Assembly (NCBI GenBank): GCA_003388505.1
Contig: QQVO01000015.1
Coordinates: 1-64,000 of the forward strand
From: Planctomycetota bacterium
Lineage (GTDB): Bacteria > Planctomycetota > Planctomycetia > Planctomycetales > Planctomycetaceae
DNA length: 64,000 bases
Reading direction: 5' to 3'
Notes under the pieces: generated by a model
The model's input: the letters and a program-made list of their open reading frames with translations, nothing else
Told to the model about the DNA's origin: nothing
The model's database searches: none
Translations under genes and position numbers: made by a program
Shown: positions 6,143-36,518 of the stretch, piece by piece
Position numbering within the stretch: the first letter of the stretch is position 1
Layout: every line of letters starts with the position of its first letter

Positions 6143-7339
6143 TTAGCAGAGTTCTGCCTTCAGCCGTTCGGCGAGTCTGCTGATCGATTCATCGTGGATG
6201 CACGTGGGGTTGATGATCAGTGCGCCTGCGTGCAGCCTGCCGTGGCCGACGTAGACCGGAGGGGAGCCGGTGCGGAGACTGCGGCAGATCTCCAGAGCCG
6301 AGCGGCCGAGGGCGGAGCAATCGGGGCGGATTTCGAGCAGCGGCCACATTTCTTTGTGAGCCGGCGTGAGGATGCGGCAGTCTGCCTTCGCGTCGGCAAG
6401 GGCGTCCTGGATGGTGGTCAGATTCGAGTGATACCGGGGCAAATCGGCGTCGTAGGCGCCGGAGGCGAACAGTTCGAGCGCCGTCAGCAGAGCAACGATC
6501 GACTCCTTGGAGACCTTGCTGCCTCGGCCGATGCCGTGCCGGGGAATGCCCTTCAGTTGCGAGCGGTCAATCAGGTTGGCCGGCGGATCCCATAACTCGA
6601 AGTGGTCGTCCATGTCGAGCATCTGAATGGCGGCCGAGGAGATCAGCGCCTTCCGACCGCAGAGGATGCCGGTGGACTGCGGACCGCGGATCGACTTGCC
6701 GCCGCTGAAGGCGACGAGATCCGCACCGGTGGCGGCGATGTCCTTCAAGTTCGAGCGGGGCGGGAGTTCGCCGGCGGCGTCGACCAGGACGGGAAGATTG
6801 TGCCGGCGGGCGACTTCAACGACGGCCGCTAGGTCCGGTTTCGAATCGGGCGCAAAGACGTAAACGATGCCGGCGGTCTGCTCGGTGACGGCGGCTTCAT
6901 ACTCCCAGGGCTCCGTCCGGCGGCCCCCTGCGCCGGCGACGATTTCATTGAACCCCACCTCGACGAACCGCGCGCCGGCGGCGCGGATGGCATGGTCGTA
7001 ACCGCTGCGCTGTTCACGGGCGATGAGAAACTGGTTGGGAAAGCCGTCACAATGCGGGAGTGATTCGATCCGCCGCAGATCGTGGCCGGCCAGGATCGCG
7101 GCCGTCCCGAGTGTCAGCGCGGCGGCAGCACCGGCGGCGACGAGCCCGGCTTCGGTTCCGGTGTGGTGGGCGATCTTGCGGGACGCGGCAGCCTGCATCT
7201 GTTCCAGGGGCACCCATTCGGCGGCGGCATCGCGAAACGCATCGAGAACTGCGGCCGGCATCGGAGAGCCGCCAAGGCGGGTCACGGCGCCGCTCGCGTT
7301 AATGATCGGTTCAAGCCCGAAGTCCTGGTAGATGCTCAT
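6143..7339 (-). CDS. SelA-like PLP-dependent aminotransferase-fold enzyme
   Basis: A 398-residue fold-type I PLP enzyme of the SelA/D-glucosaminate-6-phosphate ammonia-lyase group. The start INASGAVTRLGGSPMP is diagnostic, and the PLP lysine is K215 in FSGGKSIRGPQSTG. The cofactor aspartate lies in PVLVDAAGELPP. In this group only true SelA makes selenocysteyl-tRNA; relatives act as sugar-acid or amino-acid lyases. No selenocysteine machinery (SelB, SelC, SelD) is in the window and the protein lacks the long N-terminal domain of SelA, so a lyase role is more likely. Start ATG at 7339 was chosen over an upstream frame extension without homology. The gene lies 76 bases downstream of the DUF885 gene on the same strand. 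Confidence 0.82.
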   Translation of the reverse strand: MSIYQDFGLEPIINASGAVTRLGGSPMPAAVLDAFRDAAAEWVPLEQMQAAASRKIAHHTGTEAGLVAAGAAAALTLGTAAILAGHDLRRIESLPHCDGFPNQFLIAREQRSGYDHAIRAAGARFVEVGFNEIVAGAGGRRTEPWEYEAAVTEQTAGIVYVFAPDSKPDLAAVVEVARRHNLPVLVDAAGELPPRSNLKDIAATGADLVAFSGGKSIRGPQSTGILCGRKALISSAAIQMLDMDDHFELWDPPANLIDRSQLKGIPRHGIGRGSKVSKESIVALLTALELFASGAYDADLPRYHSNLTTIQDALADAKADCRILTPAHKEMWPLLEIRPDCSALGRSALEICRSLRTGSPPVYVGHGRLHAGALIINPTCIHDESISRLAERLKAELC

Positions 7340-7415
7340 GGTCTGATTTACGAATTTCACGGCAACGCCCACCAGTTGCAACTGGTGGGCCCTTGCGTAT
7401 GTGTGTGTGTACGCG

Positions 7416-9224
7416 CTATTCCGGAATCGGTTCGCCAAGAACAAGGCTGCGCACAAACCTCACCGGCGGCGAACCGTGCGCAGTGACCGCGTCGTTATAT
7501 CGCTTGAGCGAGAAGTCGTCGCCCCACTGCTCCCGGGCGGCTTCGCGGAGGTCGAAGTGTTGCTGGACGCCGACGAAGTAGGTGGAGAGTTGAGTCGAAG
7601 TAAGTTGGGCGCGGGTCCACTTGCCGGCGGCTTCTCGCTCCTCCTGGAAGGCGTCTTCCATCATCAGTTTCATCGCTTCGTCGCGGCGGATGCCGTCGAA
7701 GTGGATCGACTGGTCGAGAATCGCGTTGGAGATTGTCCGCAGATACCACTTGAGCGTGACGAGCCGCATCAGCGGGTCGCGATCGAGGAAGCCCTGTTCA
7801 GACATCATCTGCTCGGTGTAGCAGGCCCAGCCTTCGACGAAAACGCCCGAGGAGAGCAGCGCCCGCAAACGCGAGGGGCAGCGGTTCGAACGGGCGAGTT
7901 GCAGAAAGTGGCCCGGCATCGCCTCGTGCACGGTGAGATTGTGGATCGAGCGGATGTTGTACTCCCGCAGGAACGACGTGCACTGCTCGTCGGTCCAGTC
8001 TTCGGGAAGTGGGGCGACGGCATAATAGGTCTGCTGGCCGACTTCGAGCGGACCGGGCGAGTCGCAGTAGGCGACCGAGACGCCCCGCTGGAACTCCGGC
8101 ATGATGATGATCGTCATCGGATCGTCCGGGATCGTGATCAGGTCGTGCTCGCGGACGAAGCGGGTGGCGATCTCCATCGAATGTTCAGCCGCCGCGACGA
8201 TGCCATCGCGGGGCGGTCGGTCTGCGGCTGCCAGTTCGATGGCGGCGGCGATCGCCTGCTGCTGTTGTTCTCTGGTGGGTTCGTCGGGGAGAGCGAGTTC
8301 GGTTCGCCCGTCTTTGAGGACGTCACGGGCGATCTCATACATCTCAGCGCGGACGCGCCGCAGTTCGAATTCGGCCCGTTCGCGGACTTCCTGGCGCGAG
8401 AGGGACCCTTCGAGCGTAAATCGGAGTTTCTCGTCGTACAGTTCCGGGCCGAGGCGGAAGTCACCTTCGGCTGCGGGGACGAGTTCGTCATCGAGCCAGG
8501 TCTGATGCTGCTGGACGGCCTCTGTCGCCAACTCAATCGCCTGTTCCAGCCGTGCTTTCTCGTCCTCGTTCAGTTCATCCATCAGCGGACGGACGGCATT
8601 GTCGATGATGCTCAGGACCCCGTCGTTCTGTTTCGCGGCCGTCTCCGCGTGCACGCGCGGGACGCGGGCAGGGACGAGAGTCTGGCGGATCTGTTCGTAC
8701 AGGCGGGGAAATTGTTCGAGGCGAGATGTGACGGCGGCGAGTCGTTCGCCGGCGGGTGCGAATTCGCGCGCGGTCAGGCCGTAGATGGCGCTGCCTGCGA
8801 GTTGCGTGTAGACCACCGGGTTCCACGCCCACTCTTCGAGGCGATCGAGTCGCCATAACTGTTTGTGCAGCTCGTGACGCAGAAACGCGTAGTCGACCTG
8901 GTTGTCACGCGTGAGTTGTGCACGATCGATCTGCTCGACATCGGCCAGGAAGTCGCTCAGAAAGGTCCGGCGACGTTCGCGGGCCTCCTTGCTGATCTCG
9001 TCGAGTTCATGGTCGAAGCGGTGGTCCCCCAGCGTGGTCGCGCTGACGGGAGAGAGGGCCGGAGACTCGTCGATAAATCGTTCTGCCAGCGCCTCGAATT
9101 GCTCGTTCATCGCGTCGTTGTCTCCAGCCAGAGTTGCCGGGGCGCAGGTGTGGATGATCGTCAACAGCAATGCGGCGACGATCACAACTCGTAATCGGAG
9201 GATGTGAGGAGAGAGGGTGTTCAT
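7416..9224 (-). CDS. DUF885 family exported metallopeptidase-like protein
   Basis: A 602-residue protein of the DUF885 family, zincin-like proteins thought to be carboxypeptidases or dipeptidases. The zinc motif is HEAMPGHF, with ligands H433 and H439 and catalytic E434; the downstream glutamate is in GVFVEGWACYTEQ. Start ATG at 9224 gives a hydrophobic N-terminus (RVVIVAALLLTIIHTCAPA) fitting a signal peptide, whereas the open frame runs 84 codons further without sense. A predominantly helical body with long charged segments is typical of the family. It probably acts in the periplasm. Peptide substrate is unknown. Confidence 0.88.
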   Translation of the reverse strand: MNTLSPHILRLRVVIVAALLLTIIHTCAPATLAGDNDAMNEQFEALAERFIDESPALSPVSATTLGDHRFDHELDEISKEARERRRTFLSDFLADVEQIDRAQLTRDNQVDYAFLRHELHKQLWRLDRLEEWAWNPVVYTQLAGSAIYGLTAREFAPAGERLAAVTSRLEQFPRLYEQIRQTLVPARVPRVHAETAAKQNDGVLSIIDNAVRPLMDELNEDEKARLEQAIELATEAVQQHQTWLDDELVPAAEGDFRLGPELYDEKLRFTLEGSLSRQEVRERAEFELRRVRAEMYEIARDVLKDGRTELALPDEPTREQQQQAIAAAIELAAADRPPRDGIVAAAEHSMEIATRFVREHDLITIPDDPMTIIIMPEFQRGVSVAYCDSPGPLEVGQQTYYAVAPLPEDWTDEQCTSFLREYNIRSIHNLTVHEAMPGHFLQLARSNRCPSRLRALLSSGVFVEGWACYTEQMMSEQGFLDRDPLMRLVTLKWYLRTISNAILDQSIHFDGIRRDEAMKLMMEDAFQEEREAAGKWTRAQLTSTQLSTYFVGVQQHFDLREAAREQWGDDFSLKRYNDAVTAHGSPPVRFVRSLVLGEPIPE

Positions 9225-29480: not shown

Positions 29481-29864
29481 TCTCAGTTCTCCAGATGACG
29501 ACCCGAACTCTGGGTGTGTCCGCATTGAACGTCTGCGGAATCCAGCGTCCGCGGCCTTTCAAGATGAGAAACCATCAGACACGATTGACGACGCACTCGC
29601 AAGCAGCCGGACGGCAATCCGACGTTGGCGAGACTCTTTTGCTGTGAGTAAACTGCACGCCTGAAGCGGATTCAGGCAGGCCAACGGAGTCGCGTTTCCA
29701 GACGAGAGGAACGAGGTTCCATTGCGCGGTCGCGCGGGCAACGCAACCGGAGCTGCCGCAAGGGCGCGCGGAACGGCGGCCGCCGTTCGAGCAATAAGCC
29801 CTGTCGAGCGCATCGATTGGAACGGAGTCGATTCGACAGTTCGACCGGAGCAGGGTCACAACGC
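29481..29864. other. Divergent intergenic region, one hairpin
   Basis: The gap between the lactonase and kinase genes. A small hairpin CCTGAA-GCGGA-TTCAGG lies at 29667-29683. Nothing else stands out. Confidence 0.4.
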
Positions 29865-32800
29865 ATGGCAAGCCAGCATAGTTCAGACGAAAACGCCTGG
29901 AGAGATTTCCCTCTTCCACTCGCGCAGCTTTGCCGCCGGGCGGTCAACGCCAAGACGGCCATCGACGCCCACCTCACCGCCTTCTCGCTGGCCGAAGCCG
30001 GCTTGAAACTGCTCTCGATGACGGCGGTCGTGCATTACGCCGAACTTCCCGAACACGACCCCGCGCTGATCGAGTGCCTTCGCAAACTCGCCAGGCCTTC
30101 CCTCGGACACTGGTGGGAATTCGCCCGCCGTCTCACCCCCGTCCTCGCCGAGACGAACGATGAGTACGCGCTCATCAAGAAACTGCTGCTCGACCAGACG
30201 CACGAGGATTGCCCCCGCGCCGCAGGTCTCGACGAGGCAATGCGACGGGAACTGGGACGCAAGCGCCGTTCGGGAATCTCTGTCCGCTTCAACCGGCTGT
30301 TCGACCATCTCATCGAATACCGCAACAAGGTTCTCTACCACGCCGCCCCGGGAGGGCTTCCCCCCGAACTGCACGGGGAGATGTCCTCCGCACTCCTGCT
30401 AGGTATGACCGAAGTCTTCTCGAAGCTGGACGTCCTCGCCGGCAACCGGCTGATGTACGTCTCGGAAGTCCGGCCGCGCAAGGGGAACTGGGTCGTCTCA
30501 CGGTTCGATCTGTCCGGAGAAAACCCCCGCCGCCAGCCGGTCCTCGAAATCTCCCGAACCGCAGGCGGCGTCGTGTTCGACGAGGAGCGGGTCTATCTGT
30601 TCGATGAGGATGACGTCCCCCGGCCCCTGCATCCGTTTACGGTCTTCGATCTGGAGAACGAGGAGTTCCTCATGCTCAACGCCCGCCGAGGCAGCGGGCG
30701 GACCGAATACCTCTGCTACACCAGCGGACGGACGGAAGAACTGGCGGAACTGGGCGCGGAACCGCGGGAACTGCTGGCAGACGTGCTCAAGCTCGAGGTC
30801 ACGCAGCAGCAGGTCGACGATTGGGCGGCCGAAGCCGAGGAGGAAGACGATTCGTTCGACCCCGAAGAGAGCAGCTTCGGCCAGAGAATGCTGGGCGAGT
30901 TCGAACTCATCACCGAACTCGGCCGCGGCGGGATGGGCGTCGTCTACCGGGCGCGTCAGCCCTCCCTGGGACGCGAAGTCGCCCTCAAAAAGCTGCTCAA
31001 GACCGGCAGCGGCTCCGAGCAACGCTTCCTGCGCGAAATCCGCGCCCTGGGACGGGTCGAGCATCCCCATCTCGTCAAGATTCTTACGTCGGGTTCCGTC
31101 GGCGACGACTGGTACTACGCCATGGAACTGGTCGACGGCGTCCCGCTTTCCGCCGTCTGCAACAAGCTCCAGCAGCGCAAATCGGTCGTCGGCGACCTCG
31201 ACCTGGAAACCTGGGAAAACGCCCTCACCACCGCTTGCAGCGAAGTCCGCAAGTCGGAGAAAAGCGTCGGCGATTCCACGGCGTCCGACACGCACCGTGT
31301 CGTCGCCGCCTCCGTTGCCGAGATTCCACAGAAACTGCGGACCGGCAAAGGATACGTCGAGCGCATCGTCGAACTCGTCCGGCAAGCGGCCGGCGCCGCC
31401 GATTCGCTGCACGAGGCCGGCATCCTGCACCGGGACGTCAAACCCGGCAACATCATGGTGACGGCCGACGGCCGACGCGCGCTGCTGATGGATCTCGGCC
31501 TCGCCCAGTTATCCGACGAGGAAGACGGACGACTGACCAAAACCCGGCAGTTCGTGGGCACCCTCAGGTACGCCAGTCCCGAGCAGGTGCTCGCCGCAGA
31601 AAAGGTCGACCGCCGCAGCGACATCTACGGACTCGGGGCGACGCTGTGGGAACTGCTCACCCTGCAGCCGCTCTTCGCCGCGGACGAAACGGTCCCGGAG
31701 GCGGAAGTCATGCGTCGCATCCAGCTCGACGAGCCGGAAGCGGTGCGGCGACACAATCCCCGCGTCGACCGCGACCTCGACGCAATCATCGGCAAATGTC
31801 TCGAAAAGCGGGCTGATCGCCGCTACGCGACCGCCCGCGAACTCGCTGAAGACCTGCGCCGCTGGCAGCGGAACGAACCGGTGCTGGCGCGGCGGGTGAC
31901 GAACCTCGAAAAATCGATGCGGTGGTTCGCCCGCCGCCCTGCCCTCGCCGCCGCCTGCCTGCTCACCGTGCTCACTCTCATCTTCGGCGCCAGCGGCGGA
32001 CTGGCGCTGTGGCAATGGAGGGAGGCCGAGTCTGCGCGTCACTTCGCCGATCAGGCCCGTGTCGCTGCGGAAACGGTCCGCGACGAGCTGAAGATCTCCG
32101 TTGAGAACGAACGCGTCGCCCGCGACACAGCCGAAGCCGCTCTGGCCCAGGCCCGCGAGTCGGAAGCAAAGGCCCGCGCGGCACAGACCGAACTGGGCCG
32201 CCAGAACGAAGAACTCAGAGCCACGCGCATCGACCTCGCGCAAGTGGGATACGCCGATCACATGATGCTCGCACAGCACGAGTGGGATCGAGGCAACGGA
32301 TTGAGCGCGCAGGAGTTGCTGAACAATTGCGATCCGGAGTATCGCGGCTTCGAGTGGGCCCTCTTCCACTCGAAATTCTTCGAGTTCGAATCGGGCGTCA
32401 TCCCCCGCAGCGGGGGCGACAGTTGGGGCGCCATCCGGCCGGACGGTCAACGCGCGGCAACGACCGACTCGGAAAAACGGCTCAGTCTGATTGACGTCGC
32501 CGGCGGCGAATCGATCAGGGACGGAGAATTTCAGGTCGACGGAGGACGATTCGTCATCTTCAGCCCCGATGGATCACGCCTCGCCGCAGTGGATGTCGAC
32601 GGCGTCGCCCATATCTGGAATGCCGATTCGGGCGACGCCGTTCGCGAATTGCCGGCGGTTGAAGCGGCGATCTTCGATCTCAAGTTCGGTCCCGCCGGCC
32701 GTCAGTTCGCAATGGCCACGGATGACGGGCTGATTCGACTCTTCCGACCCGATGCGGGGAGCAACGCGATTTCGCTGACGGGACACGAAGACGCCGTCAA

Positions 32801-35800
32801 TGCAGTGGATTTTTCACCAGAGGGAGATCAGCTTGCCTCAGCCGGCTACGACGGCACGATCCGCATCTGGACCACCAGCACCGGCGTGCTCGAGAAAACC
32901 CTGGCCGACCCGAGCGGCGAGTCGATCAGTCACGTTGTCTTCAGTCCCGATGGTCGGTGGGTCGCAACATCGGGATTCAATGGTCCGGTCCGACTCTGGG
33001 ACGTCCAGTCGGGCGATCAACTCGCTACGTTTTCCTTCTCGGCCCCCGAACAGGAATACTCGTTCCGCTTTATCGATTTGGTCGAATTCAGTCCCGACGG
33101 CGCGTTCCTGGCGACCATGGCCTCCAAGGACGTCTCGCTGTGGCGAATCCCGTATTACTTGCGGCGCGGCGGCCCCCGGCAGCGGTCAGGCGTGTCTTCC
33201 GACGTCCCCGACTACTCGCAGGACGTCAATCTGGCCGGTCACACCGACTGGGTTTACGCCATGGCGTTCAGCCCGCATGGAGTGCGCATGGCCACCGGAG
33301 GCGACGGTCGCATCATCCGTCTGTGGGAGACCTCGACCGGAACGCTCCTCGCCACGCTGACGGGTCATCAGGCGGCCGTGACGAAACTCAGGTTCAGCGC
33401 CGACGGCCAACGGCTGACATCGCTCGATTCCGGCGGAGCCGTTCGCACCTGGGACGTTGTGTTCTCCCCGCAGCGGCGGCGATCGCAGGTTGCCTTTCTC
33501 GGCCACACCGACCGGATCAACAGTGTTCGCTTCAGTCCCGACGGCAGGCACGCCATCACCGCGGGAAACGACCAGTCGGTCCGAATCTGGGAGGCCGGGT
33601 CGGGCGCCGAGGTCGACACGATTCTGGTCACCGCCCCCGGAGCGGACGACTACTCCTACGAGTACGTGCAGCAGGCACTGCTCAGCCCCGACGGCCGCAT
33701 TCTGGGACTGGCCACCGACGAAGGCCGCGTCGAACTACGCGATCCCGCCGATGCCGCCAAAGTCGTCGCTCTCCAGGAACCGATCAAGAAGAGCAGCGAC
33801 TTCAATCTCAGCGGAATGCAGAAAACCATTGCCTTCAGTGCGGAGAAAATGCGGCTCGCGATGGCGTCCTCGGACGCGACGATCAAACTCTGGGATGCCG
33901 GCGGAAGTCCGGAACCGAGGATCTTCACCGGGCACTCGGGACAGATCAATTCTCTGACCTTCGGTCCGCACGGCACGCGCTTGGCTTCGGCCTCGAGCGA
34001 CGGCAGCGTCCGATTGTGGGACTGCGAAAGCGGCGGCAGCGCCGGAATACTCCCGCGAGCCCCGGCCGCCGTCAACGCAGTCGCGTTCAGTCCGGATGGA
34101 AAGCAGATTGCAACCGGCGGGCAGGACGGCGAAGTGCGAGTCTACAGCGCGGCCGGCAAGGAAGAACTCTGGTCGGGCGATGAACACGGAGAATCGATCG
34201 GCGTCGATCAATTGGGAATCATTTCGGTTGTCTTTGATCCCGCAGGGAAGCGGGTCGCCTCGGCGGGCGACGACGGACGAATCCTGATCTGGAACGCCCA
34301 GTCCGGGGAACTGCTGGTGAAGCTCGAAAACGGGCACACCGACATGGTTCGGGACATCGCGTTCAGCCCCGATGGAGAACGACTCGCCTCCGCAAGCGGA
34401 GACAGGACGGCGGTTCTCTGGAACGTCGCCGACGGTTCGCAGATCGCTGTGCTCCGCGACCATACCGACTGGGTCAACATGGTCGCCTTCAATCCCGAGG
34501 GGAACTATCTCGCAACCGCAGGCGACGACAATTCGGTCAACGTCTGGGACGGGCGGACCGGCGAATTACTGCATTCCCTCGACGACCACGCCGATTGGGT
34601 CCGAGCGGTCGCCTTCAGTCGGGACGGCCGGTTTCTCGCCTCCGGTTGCGACGACAGGACCGTTCGCGTCTGGGAGACCGGCGCCTGGCAGCAGGTCAGC
34701 GCCCTGGTCGGACATACCGGAATCGTCCGCTTCGTCGACTTCGGCTCGGAGGGGGGGCAAGTCCTTTCGGCGACGATGGGATATCAGGCGACGTCGCGCC
34801 TGTGGGACCGCGAAAGCGGGGAACAACTGGCGGAGTTCAGCGCCGACTTTCAAGGCACCGACTCATCGACGACAGTCACCGCCCAACTCGCCTTCAGTCC
34901 CGACGGCGCCCGCGTCGCTTCACTGGCGCTCGACAAGCGGACGATCTACGTCTGGTCGACGGAGACCAACGAGAGGCTGTTCGAACTCAGAGGTCATCCG
35001 AGAGTCGTCCAATGCCTGACCTACAGCCCCGACGGTCGTTACATCGCGAGCGCCGGACTCGACGGCGTCGTCCGCCTGTGGGACATGGAAACCGGAACGG
35101 CGGCCGCCGCACTCGAGGGACACGAACCGCTTGAGAAGGAATTTGGAAACGGCGGCGTCGGTCATCTCGCCTTCAGCGCCGACGGCTCCTTGCTGGCCTC
35201 GGCCGGTGGGGATGAAGTCGTCCGGGTCTGGGACGTCGGCAAGAAAGCGTTGCGAAACGAGTTCCGCGGGCACGACGGGTCGGTGCAGCAGGTCGCGATC
35301 AGCGGCGATCGAAAATGGGTCGCGTCCGCGTCGAACGACGAAACGGTCCGGCTCTGGCCGCTCGGGGCGACCGGAGAACAATCCGTGCTGAAGGGACACA
35401 GCGATTGGGTCCGCACCATCGCGTTCAGTCCCGATGACACCCGGCTGGCGAGCAGCGGCGATGACGGCACTGTGAGAATATGGGGCGTCAACTCCGGTCG
35501 CGCGATCGCCGTGTTTCAGCAGTTTCCGGAGACCGACTCGATCGCGCCGGTCTTTGCCTTCCATCCGGATGGAAAAAGCCTCGCGATGACCTCCAGCGGT
35601 CATGCAGTGCAGTATCTGAGTCCTGACGAAACGGACGAACAGCGCTTGGCGAGGACCATGGAGTGGCATCGCTGGTCAATCGAGGCCGGAGAACGGGCCG
35701 GCAATCCCCACGCCATGCTGTTCCACCTCGAGCCTCTCTTCGACGGCGAGCACGTGGAGTCAAAAACGTACTACCAACGCGCCACCGCTCTCGCTCTGCT

Positions 35801-36518
35801 TCGAAGGTTCGACGAGGCGGTCGTCGACTTACAGGCCGCCCGGTCGCTTGCGGAAACCCCCGCCGACGTGGCGACAGTCTCTCTCAGGCTCGGACTGGCC
35901 GAACTCGAACGCGACAACATCGCAGCCTACCGGGAAATCTGCAGCGAGATGCTGGAAACGGAAGTCAGAACTTTCAATACCAGCGAAGCGATCTACAACA
36001 ATCACATCCTCGTCGCCTGGCTCGCGACCGTTCGGCCGGACGCCGTCCCCCGGCCCGACTATCTGGTGACGCTGGCGAAAAGTGCCGTCGACTTCGCACC
36101 CGATGATCTCTTCTACCAGGAGGTCTACGCTGCCACGCTCTACCGGGCGGGCGAATACCTTGAGGCCGCCAGAACCCTTGATGAACTACAGAAGAAATCC
36201 GAAACCGGCCTCAACATCGAGAGCCAACTCCTGTTCGCGCTGGCCTGTTCCCGCGCTGGATTCGAGCAGGACGCGATGCGCTTCTACCTGGAGGCCCGGC
36301 GGCTGATGGGGGAGGGCGACCCCAAAGGAGATGACGATGAGACCGCCCCGCCGGCTCCCGGCAGCGAACCCGACCCTCCCGAACCGGACGACGCCGAAGC
36401 AGACTTCATCCCCAATCCGCTCGTCTCCTGGGAACTTCGCGCCCGCCGCAGGCATCTGCTCGCCGAGGCCGATGCGTTGATCGCCGATGAAATCGCCCCG
36501 GGAGCGCCCCCGCGATAG
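29865..36518 (+). CDS. Giant Ser/Thr protein kinase with HEPN-like N-terminus and about three WD40 propellers
   Basis: A 2217-residue protein. Residues 1-190 are helical and hold EYRNKVLYHAA, where R153 to H159 match the Rx4-6H motif of HEPN domains; a beta-rich region follows. The kinase (about 342-670) has GRGGMG at 353, K375 (VALKK), HRDVKPGN with D524, SPEQV, and DLG (D543) in place of DFG; it also has a roughly 70-residue insert after the hinge. A membrane helix lies near 695-716 (AAACLLTVLTLIFGASGG), then a coiled coil, then about 24 WD-type units (residues about 845-1920) and TPR-like helices. It is likely a membrane-bound receptor kinase. The exact start is uncertain (TTG at 29817 possible); the tail is acidic and proline-rich. 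Confidence 0.9.
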   Translation: MASQHSSDENAWRDFPLPLAQLCRRAVNAKTAIDAHLTAFSLAEAGLKLLSMTAVVHYAELPEHDPALIECLRKLARPSLGHWWEFARRLTPVLAETNDEYALIKKLLLDQTHEDCPRAAGLDEAMRRELGRKRRSGISVRFNRLFDHLIEYRNKVLYHAAPGGLPPELHGEMSSALLLGMTEVFSKLDVLAGNRLMYVSEVRPRKGNWVVSRFDLSGENPRRQPVLEISRTAGGVVFDEERVYLFDEDDVPRPLHPFTVFDLENEEFLMLNARRGSGRTEYLCYTSGRTEELAELGAEPRELLADVLKLEVTQQQVDDWAAEAEEEDDSFDPEESSFGQRMLGEFELITELGRGGMGVVYRARQPSLGREVALKKLLKTGSGSEQRFLREIRALGRVEHPHLVKILTSGSVGDDWYYAMELVDGVPLSAVCNKLQQRKSVVGDLDLETWENALTTACSEVRKSEKSVGDSTASDTHRVVAASVAEIPQKLRTGKGYVERIVELVRQAAGAADSLHEAGILHRDVKPGNIMVTADGRRALLMDLGLAQLSDEEDGRLTKTRQFVGTLRYASPEQVLAAEKVDRRSDIYGLGATLWELLTLQPLFAADETVPEAEVMRRIQLDEPEAVRRHNPRVDRDLDAIIGKCLEKRADRRYATARELAEDLRRWQRNEPVLARRVTNLEKSMRWFARRPALAAACLLTVLTLIFGASGGLALWQWREAESARHFADQARVAAETVRDELKISVENERVARDTAEAALAQARESEAKARAAQTELGRQNEELRATRIDLAQVGYADHMMLAQHEWDRGNGLSAQELLNNCDPEYRGFEWALFHSKFFEFESGVIPRSGGDSWGAIRPDGQRAATTDSEKRLSLIDVAGGESIRDGEFQVDGGRFVIFSPDGSRLAAVDVDGVAHIWNADSGDAVRELPAVEAAIFDLKFGPAGRQFAMATDDGLIRLFRPDAGSNAISLTGHEDAVNAVDFSPEGDQLASAGYDGTIRIWTTSTGVLEKTLADPSGESISHVVFSPDGRWVATSGFNGPVRLWDVQSGDQLATFSFSAPEQEYSFRFIDLVEFSPDGAFLATMASKDVSLWRIPYYLRRGGPRQRSGVSSDVPDYSQDVNLAGHTDWVYAMAFSPHGVRMATGGDGRIIRLWETSTGTLLATLTGHQAAVTKLRFSADGQRLTSLDSGGAVRTWDVVFSPQRRRSQVAFLGHTDRINSVRFSPDGRHAITAGNDQSVRIWEAGSGAEVDTILVTAPGADDYSYEYVQQALLSPDGRILGLATDEGRVELRDPADAAKVVALQEPIKKSSDFNLSGMQKTIAFSAEKMRLAMASSDATIKLWDAGGSPEPRIFTGHSGQINSLTFGPHGTRLASASSDGSVRLWDCESGGSAGILPRAPAAVNAVAFSPDGKQIATGGQDGEVRVYSAAGKEELWSGDEHGESIGVDQLGIISVVFDPAGKRVASAGDDGRILIWNAQSGELLVKLENGHTDMVRDIAFSPDGERLASASGDRTAVLWNVADGSQIAVLRDHTDWVNMVAFNPEGNYLATAGDDNSVNVWDGRTGELLHSLDDHADWVRAVAFSRDGRFLASGCDDRTVRVWETGAWQQVSALVGHTGIVRFVDFGSEGGQVLSATMGYQATSRLWDRESGEQLAEFSADFQGTDSSTTVTAQLAFSPDGARVASLALDKRTIYVWSTETNERLFELRGHPRVVQCLTYSPDGRYIASAGLDGVVRLWDMETGTAAAALEGHEPLEKEFGNGGVGHLAFSADGSLLASAGGDEVVRVWDVGKKALRNEFRGHDGSVQQVAISGDRKWVASASNDETVRLWPLGATGEQSVLKGHSDWVRTIAFSPDDTRLASSGDDGTVRIWGVNSGRAIAVFQQFPETDSIAPVFAFHPDGKSLAMTSSGHAVQYLSPDETDEQRLARTMEWHRWSIEAGERAGNPHAMLFHLEPLFDGEHVESKTYYQRATALALLRRFDEAVVDLQAARSLAETPADVATVSLRLGLAELERDNIAAYREICSEMLETEVRTFNTSEAIYNNHILVAWLATVRPDAVPRPDYLVTLAKSAVDFAPDDLFYQEVYAATLYRAGEYLEAARTLDELQKKSETGLNIESQLLFALACSRAGFEQDAMRFYLEARRLMGEGDPKGDDDETAPPAPGSEPDPPEPDDAEADFIPNPLVSWELRARRRHLLAEADALIADEIAPGAPPR

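Follow-up and report, generated by a model that had tools for sequence, protein, structure and literature searches.

A WD40 receptor-like kinase of Planctomycetota with a very probable new HEPN-family domain: a proposed Ire1-like logic with the parts in another order

What the output of a planctomycete membrane kinase may be is the question raised by a gene at positions 29865-36518 of the window, i.e. the whole stretch of 64,000 nucleotides analysed here (Planctomycetota bacterium, assembly GCA_003388505.1, contig QQVO01000015.1). The open reading frame, on the forward strand, begins with an ATG at 29865, ends at 36518 and encodes 2217 amino acids, an alternative TTG start at 29817 adding 16 residues. 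These are exactly the coordinates given in an earlier note, made from the sequence alone, which had described a kinase with a HEPN-like and potentially RNA-cutting N-terminus. Pfam recognises kinase and WD40 families in the protein, and a Pfam scan of residues 1-330 gave no family match. The host genome has an estimated completeness of 98.8% and contains several dozen kinases. Since the list of structural matches is consistent and the glutamate, arginine, asparagine and histidine of the HEPN site are conserved, the N-terminal domain very probably represents, as far as models and sequence allow it to be judged, a new family of HEPN domains that has kept its active site.

The HEPN proposal of the earlier note had been based on the motif RNKVLYH, which indeed occupies residues 153-159. 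The Rx4-6H pattern was rejected as evidence when taken alone, its frequency being at chance level, with three matches in the first 330 residues of the protein; only the third, RNKVLYH, is conserved in the family, the other two not. Relatives are scattered through the Planctomycetota, the only group sampled in depth, and were detected in 18 of 393 genomes by a five-sequence profile and in 36 of 392 by a wider one, with three paralogues of the HEPN-type domain in the host genome itself (31-43% identity). When 17 sequences, some as little as 18% identical, were aligned, E44, R153, N154 and H159 as well as H36, G81 and W83 were among the positions without any variation, and in a weighted alignment of 25 sequences E44 and N154 are invariant, R153 being kept in 94% and H159 in 91%. 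The position of K48 is taken by lysine or arginine, and a conserved tyrosine stands just before R153. Moreover, RN-x4/5-H is kept in 51 of the 58 covered relatives, nearly all of them with the upstream glutamate, in a manual count in which many of the relatives are paralogues and hence not independent. Conservation at the four positions E/R/N/H exceeds that of most of the domain. Thus the conservation of R153 and H159, which had been put forward as a check, extends to N154 and E44 and across divergent planctomycete members.

The fold was approached with AlphaFold models, each built from five sequences (the window protein and loci L037-L040), in which residues 1-330 reached a predicted local distance difference test score (pLDDT) of 86 and the helical part alone one of 88. 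Helices are predicted at residues 17-27, at 32-59 (carrying E44xxxK48), in an inserted helical region, at 142-157 (ending at the RN motif) and at 167-187, with H159 in the loop after helix 142-157. In the published description of HEPN domains (PMC3710099), helix 2 bears an acidic Ex3[KR] motif and helix 3 ends with Rx4-6H, and the predicted arrangement corresponds to this layout; the sequence holds both defining elements, with a polar residue after the arginine. As comparison of the whole 1-330 model with the PDB gave a list filled by the beta domain which follows, a separate model was made of the helical domain and used for the search. Among the 553 solved chains compared by VIA-align, the top eight matches were only HEPN or HEPN-containing proteins, namely Roquin 4qik (Z 7.0), Csm6 (8jh1, 5fsh, 8jbb and 6tug, Z 6.3-5.3), the PaREP1-type 2jpu and 2q00 (Z 6.3 and 5.2) and the MtlR-type 3c8g (Z 5.3), two further MtlR entries coming after these eight. 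Foldseek also ranked 3c8g first, but with an E value of 1.4. The PaREP1, MtlR and Csm6 families are classed as HEPN (PMC3710099), and an HEPN domain flanks the ROQ domain of Roquins (PMC4614863). In Thermus thermophilus Csm6, whose HEPN dimer resembles that of Ire1, replacement of Glu332, Arg415, Asn416 or His422 by alanine nearly abolishes RNase activity (PMC4748810); E44, R153, N154 and H159 are the same residue types. Fold prediction supports the HEPN-like character seen in the earlier note, and neither of the two findings named there as refuting it, another fold of the N-terminus or a lack of R/H conservation in orthologues, was obtained.

Several points weigh against this assignment. Neither Pfam nor NCBIfam nor PADLOC contains a curated HEPN family whose profile matched the N-terminus, and hhalign comparisons with planctomycete Swt1-HEPN and DUF4145 were not significant, although the former nonetheless aligned at the RN motif. 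In addition, every single Z-score (5.2-7.0) is below a level that would be safe alone and in the range of chance matches between helical bundles, so that the consistency of the predicted match list is what constitutes the evidence. A sequence search of the PDB returned nothing meaningful, and nothing usable came from viral predicted structures. Profiles often fail to detect homology between HEPN families because of their divergence (PMC3710099). The absence of profile-level homology to known HEPN families and Z-scores no higher than 5-7 would also fit an unrelated helical bundle in which RNxxxxH is convergent or structural; nevertheless, only HEPN or HEPN-containing proteins are among the eight best matches, the two HEPN motifs both occur, conserved and in the correct helices, and we regard such a bundle as very improbable. 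As a separate observation, a small protein of the HEPN_Swt1 family, carrying RNxxAH and a hydrophobic stretch at its C-terminal end, is encoded on contig 17 of the host genome (L064, 32961-33296), and further genomes belonging to the same family have similar proteins (L065, L067 and L068).

The remainder of the chain has the parts of a receptor kinase (Table 1). The kinase motifs are GRGGMGVV at residue 353, VALK at 372-375, HRDVKPGN at 522 and DLG at 543, and with this full set the kinase appears intact. A single hydrophobic stretch starts near residue 693. The DLG in place of DFG that the earlier note had remarked upon is present but not peculiar, DLGLA being the form in most relatives and DFG that in some; as a mark of an unusual or dead kinase it was rejected for this reason. 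The long hinge insert is real, because the distance from hinge to HRD is of about 102 residues in the window protein and of 44-61 in members without insert; most family members have it (84-112 residues). The estimate of about 24 WD units agrees with the 24 matches, some of them weak, of a self-trained WD profile over residues 859-1907, Pfam recognising WD40 in 15 stretches (E 3.5e-156), and for the TPR-like tail a weak match only was obtained. In planctomycete serine/threonine kinases with WD40 or TPR repeats, the kinase is predicted inside and the repeats outside the cytoplasm (PMC11032199).

Table 1. Features of the HEPN-kinase-WD40 gene (window coordinates)
Feature	Position	Strand	Description and basis
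Whole gene	29865..36518	+	2217 aa; HEPN - beta domain - Ser/Thr kinase - transmembrane helix - WD40 array - helical tail
HEPN-type helical domain (very probable)	29895..30434	+	Residues 11-190; AF2 pLDDT 88; HEPN proteins are the top 8 structural matches
E44-x3-K48	29994..30008	+	Ex3[KR] HEPN motif in the second long predicted helix; E44 invariant, K48 K/R; definition from PMC3710099
R153-N154-x4-H159	30321..30341	+	Putative HEPN RNase motif; end of helix 142-157 and next loop
Beta domain	30447..30749	+	Residues 195-295; accompanies the HEPN domain in kinase, NACHT/STAND and PCMT proteins
Ser/Thr protein kinase	30897..31904	+	G-loop, VALK lysine, HRDVKPGN and DLG all there
Kinase hinge insert	31170..31340	+	About 45-55 aa; boundaries approximate; in most of the family
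Single transmembrane helix	31941..32003	+	From sequence; basic stretch before helix (kinase side inside); hydropathy maxima of relatives at the same place
WD40 array	32439..35585	+	About 24 units; predicted outside the cytoplasm by analogy with PMC11032199
C-terminal tail, TPR-like (weak)	35652..36515	+	NCBIfam TPR_END_plus, E 0.009

Because the repeats are predicted outside and the kinase and HEPN domain inside, an Ire1-like receptor is the simplest reading, and the protein is rather probably a receptor in the membrane, with the kinase controlling an RNase effector. In such a receptor the WD40 array would bind a ligand or partner outside the cytoplasmic membrane, binding would lead to clustering, and clustering would switch on the cytoplasmic kinase; the HEPN domains would thereby be brought together, the superfamily working as dimers with a shared active site, and the dimer would cut cytoplasmic RNA, leading to an arrest, stress or defence response. 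We infer the RNase catalysis, the activation (not inhibition) by the kinase, the control through dimers, the topology and the purpose of the receptor.

Alternatively, the kinase could hold the HEPN domain silent, like the MNT antitoxins that AMPylate HepT next to its active site. Modification of a tyrosine beside the HEPN motif neutralises HepT (PMC7641770), the family has its conserved tyrosine just before R153, and kinase and HEPN domain belong to one chain, on the same side of the membrane helix. However, one relative (L039:1298-6160) keeps the HEPN domain and the WD40 sensor, with the kinase cut after the N-lobe and running straight into the transmembrane helix; its C-lobe may have been lost by deletion or through an assembly error, and unless the latter applies the product would be an unrestrained toxin. 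Furthermore, kinases of the Ser/Thr class usually phosphorylate serine or threonine, not tyrosine. We consider silencing by the kinase unlikely.

It is also quite unlikely that the HEPN domain, without cutting RNA, is an RNA or nucleotide binder or a dimerisation module, the output then being ordinary substrate phosphorylation. Such families do exist and are found among the structural matches, as is the case for many MtlR proteins and for Roquin (PMC3710099, PMC4614863). Moreover, L169, L156, L161 and L143 have lost the R or the H and retained the kinase motifs; because of these few kinase-bearing members, the putative RNase site would not be essential in all of them, a further point that counts against an RNase output, and a binding-only role is possible for some. 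Against a general role of this kind speak the retention of the motif in most covered relatives, nearly all together with the upstream glutamate, and the excess conservation of the E/R/N/H positions, both described above.

Most relatives follow the order HEPN - beta domain - kinase - transmembrane helix - variable C-terminus, the latter being WD40, TPR-like or FGE-sulfatase. The beta domain, whose residues 193-255 resemble a small beta-barrel (OB/SH3-like) in weak matches of Z 4-6, is unnamed and is a companion of the HEPN-type domain. The two together also precede AAA_16 STAND-type TPR proteins throughout a clade whose genomes are small, about 3 Mb, with approximately one carrier per genome (L054, L056, L057 and L164-L167, group f26), and are found on a NACHT protein (L158) and a NACHT-like TPR protein (L163), both having the RN motif with the classical Rx4H spacing. 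In one case (L157:115-2559) the module is C-terminal to a PCMT-type methyltransferase domain. A quick tree separated the small-genome STAND clade from the kinase proteins, its deep branches being weakly supported. Such apparent shuffling onto kinase and NTPase switches is the behaviour expected of an effector. No relatives were found in the plasmid collection searched.

Recent paralogues differ mainly in their outer part. The HEPN and beta domains are 86-100% identical between them and the segment up to the transmembrane helix 84-95%, the part beyond the helix often being only 25-36% identical. In two tandem HEPN-kinase genes (L044, genome G149), DNA-level identity extends over about 600 codons, similarity decays from about codon 660, and the outer parts share about 25% protein identity, which may reflect gene conversion or a module swap, or else an artefact of metagenome-assembled genome assembly. 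The pattern of a conserved core and a divergent outer part recurs in L146, L154/L045 and L152/L153, and is not seen in the STAND orthologues.

A second source of sensor variation was found in genome G113, where locus L181 contains a reverse transcriptase (7454-8452), an Avd gene (8452-8922) and a template of 129 bp (7289-7417). This template is matched by the last 40-odd codons of five HEPN-kinase-transmembrane receptors (L047-L051), in all five at the end of the C-terminal FGE-sulfatase region, a domain assigned by Pfam for L047, L048, L049 and L051 and by motif for L050. Of the mismatches to the template, 16 of 16 for L049, 20 of 20 for L050 and 14 of 15 for L048 lie at template adenines (hypergeometric P of 5.6e-12, 1.6e-15 and 3e-9, respectively), and L051 and L047 have the adenine bias too, with added drift. 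Reverse transcriptase, Avd and template make up a complete diversity-generating retroelement (DGR), with the five receptors as its identified targets. It belongs to relatives; the window gene, at which no template search was aimed, has a WD40 sensor. On contig 21 of G113 (L189:918-1039) the template/variable repeat occurs a sixth time, near a degraded-looking reverse transcriptase-like frame, and there was a reverse transcriptase match in the window gene's own genome.

The earlier note had compared the protein to conflict systems, a view which the NACHT/STAND fusions of the HEPN and beta module and the DGR-diversified relatives favour and which the surroundings of the window gene do not. In fact, its neighbours are of ordinary metabolism (PSD1/DUF1549, DUF1501, a lactonase, an enolase-superfamily enzyme and a VTT-domain protein), no defence neighbourhood being found, and seven of the eight neighbours tested at related loci were without defence match, the eighth being another kinase. 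PADLOC had no model matching the HEPN part, and the resemblance of the kinase domain to PD-T4-6, Mad6 and other defence kinases is a generic one. For the window gene, stress sensing and kin or predator recognition are thus as possible as phage defence. For the family, we tentatively propose that the RNase of the new HEPN family is the effector of an immune-receptor-like repertoire, with a fixed HEPN-kinase core, exchangeable or DGR-hypermutated sensors and a module common to NACHT/STAND proteins.

As regards known systems, Ire1 and RNase L also join a kinase and a HEPN-type RNase fold in one chain, with an active site of R, N and H, and Ire1 shares the single transmembrane helix and the outer sensor. 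Their KEN domain, however, is a circularly permuted HEPN RNase C-terminal to the kinase, whereas in the window protein the HEPN domain is N-terminal, with a beta domain between; the sensor is WD40 (TPR or FGE-sulfatase in relatives), and the protein is bacterial. The likeness to Ire1 is one of proposed logic, to be set apart from any sequence relationship to KEN: the protein is not an Ire1 homologue. The Planctomycetota serine/threonine kinase receptors described in PMC11032199 have the kinase, the single transmembrane helix and the C-terminal WD40/TPR array, and the present family differs from them by an extra N-terminal HEPN and beta module, unrecognised by Pfam, of which the searched passages of that source contain no mention. 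With the HEPN RNases Csm6, HepT, Abi and Swt1 (PMC3710099) the domain shares RN-x4/5-H, Ex3[KR] and the predicted helical fold, and it differs in having no curated match, a larger insert between helices 2 and 3 and the fusion to a receptor kinase. The STAND/NACHT systems with DGR-diversified C-lectin sensors (PMC10907252, PMC7159879) find a parallel in the HEPN and beta module of NACHT/STAND-TPR proteins and in the five relatives with a DGR variable region in the FGE-sulfatase domain; the present family differs in using a membrane kinase as switch and HEPN as N-terminal part, PMC10907252 making no mention of HEPN. HEPN with kinase (Ire1 and RNase L; AbiJ-NTD kinases in PMC3710099), HEPN with a transmembrane helix (PMC3710099) and DGR with NACHT or kinase (PMC10907252) are each known, and it is their combination that appears to be new. 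A literature search for HEPN together with planctomycete kinases, WD40, DGRs or receptors, of mostly open-access coverage, yielded no description of the family.

WD40/TPR receptor Ser/Thr kinases are abundant in Planctomycetota and their outputs mostly obscure, so that a linked RNase would provide a concrete output for one branch. If the proposed reading is true, the kinase-plus-HEPN-RNase logic of Ire1 would also have been built in bacteria, with the parts in a different order, and bacteria would have in this family a counterpart to both Ire1/RNase L and diversified immune receptors, the DGR-diversified relatives making recognition by these receptors experimentally approachable.

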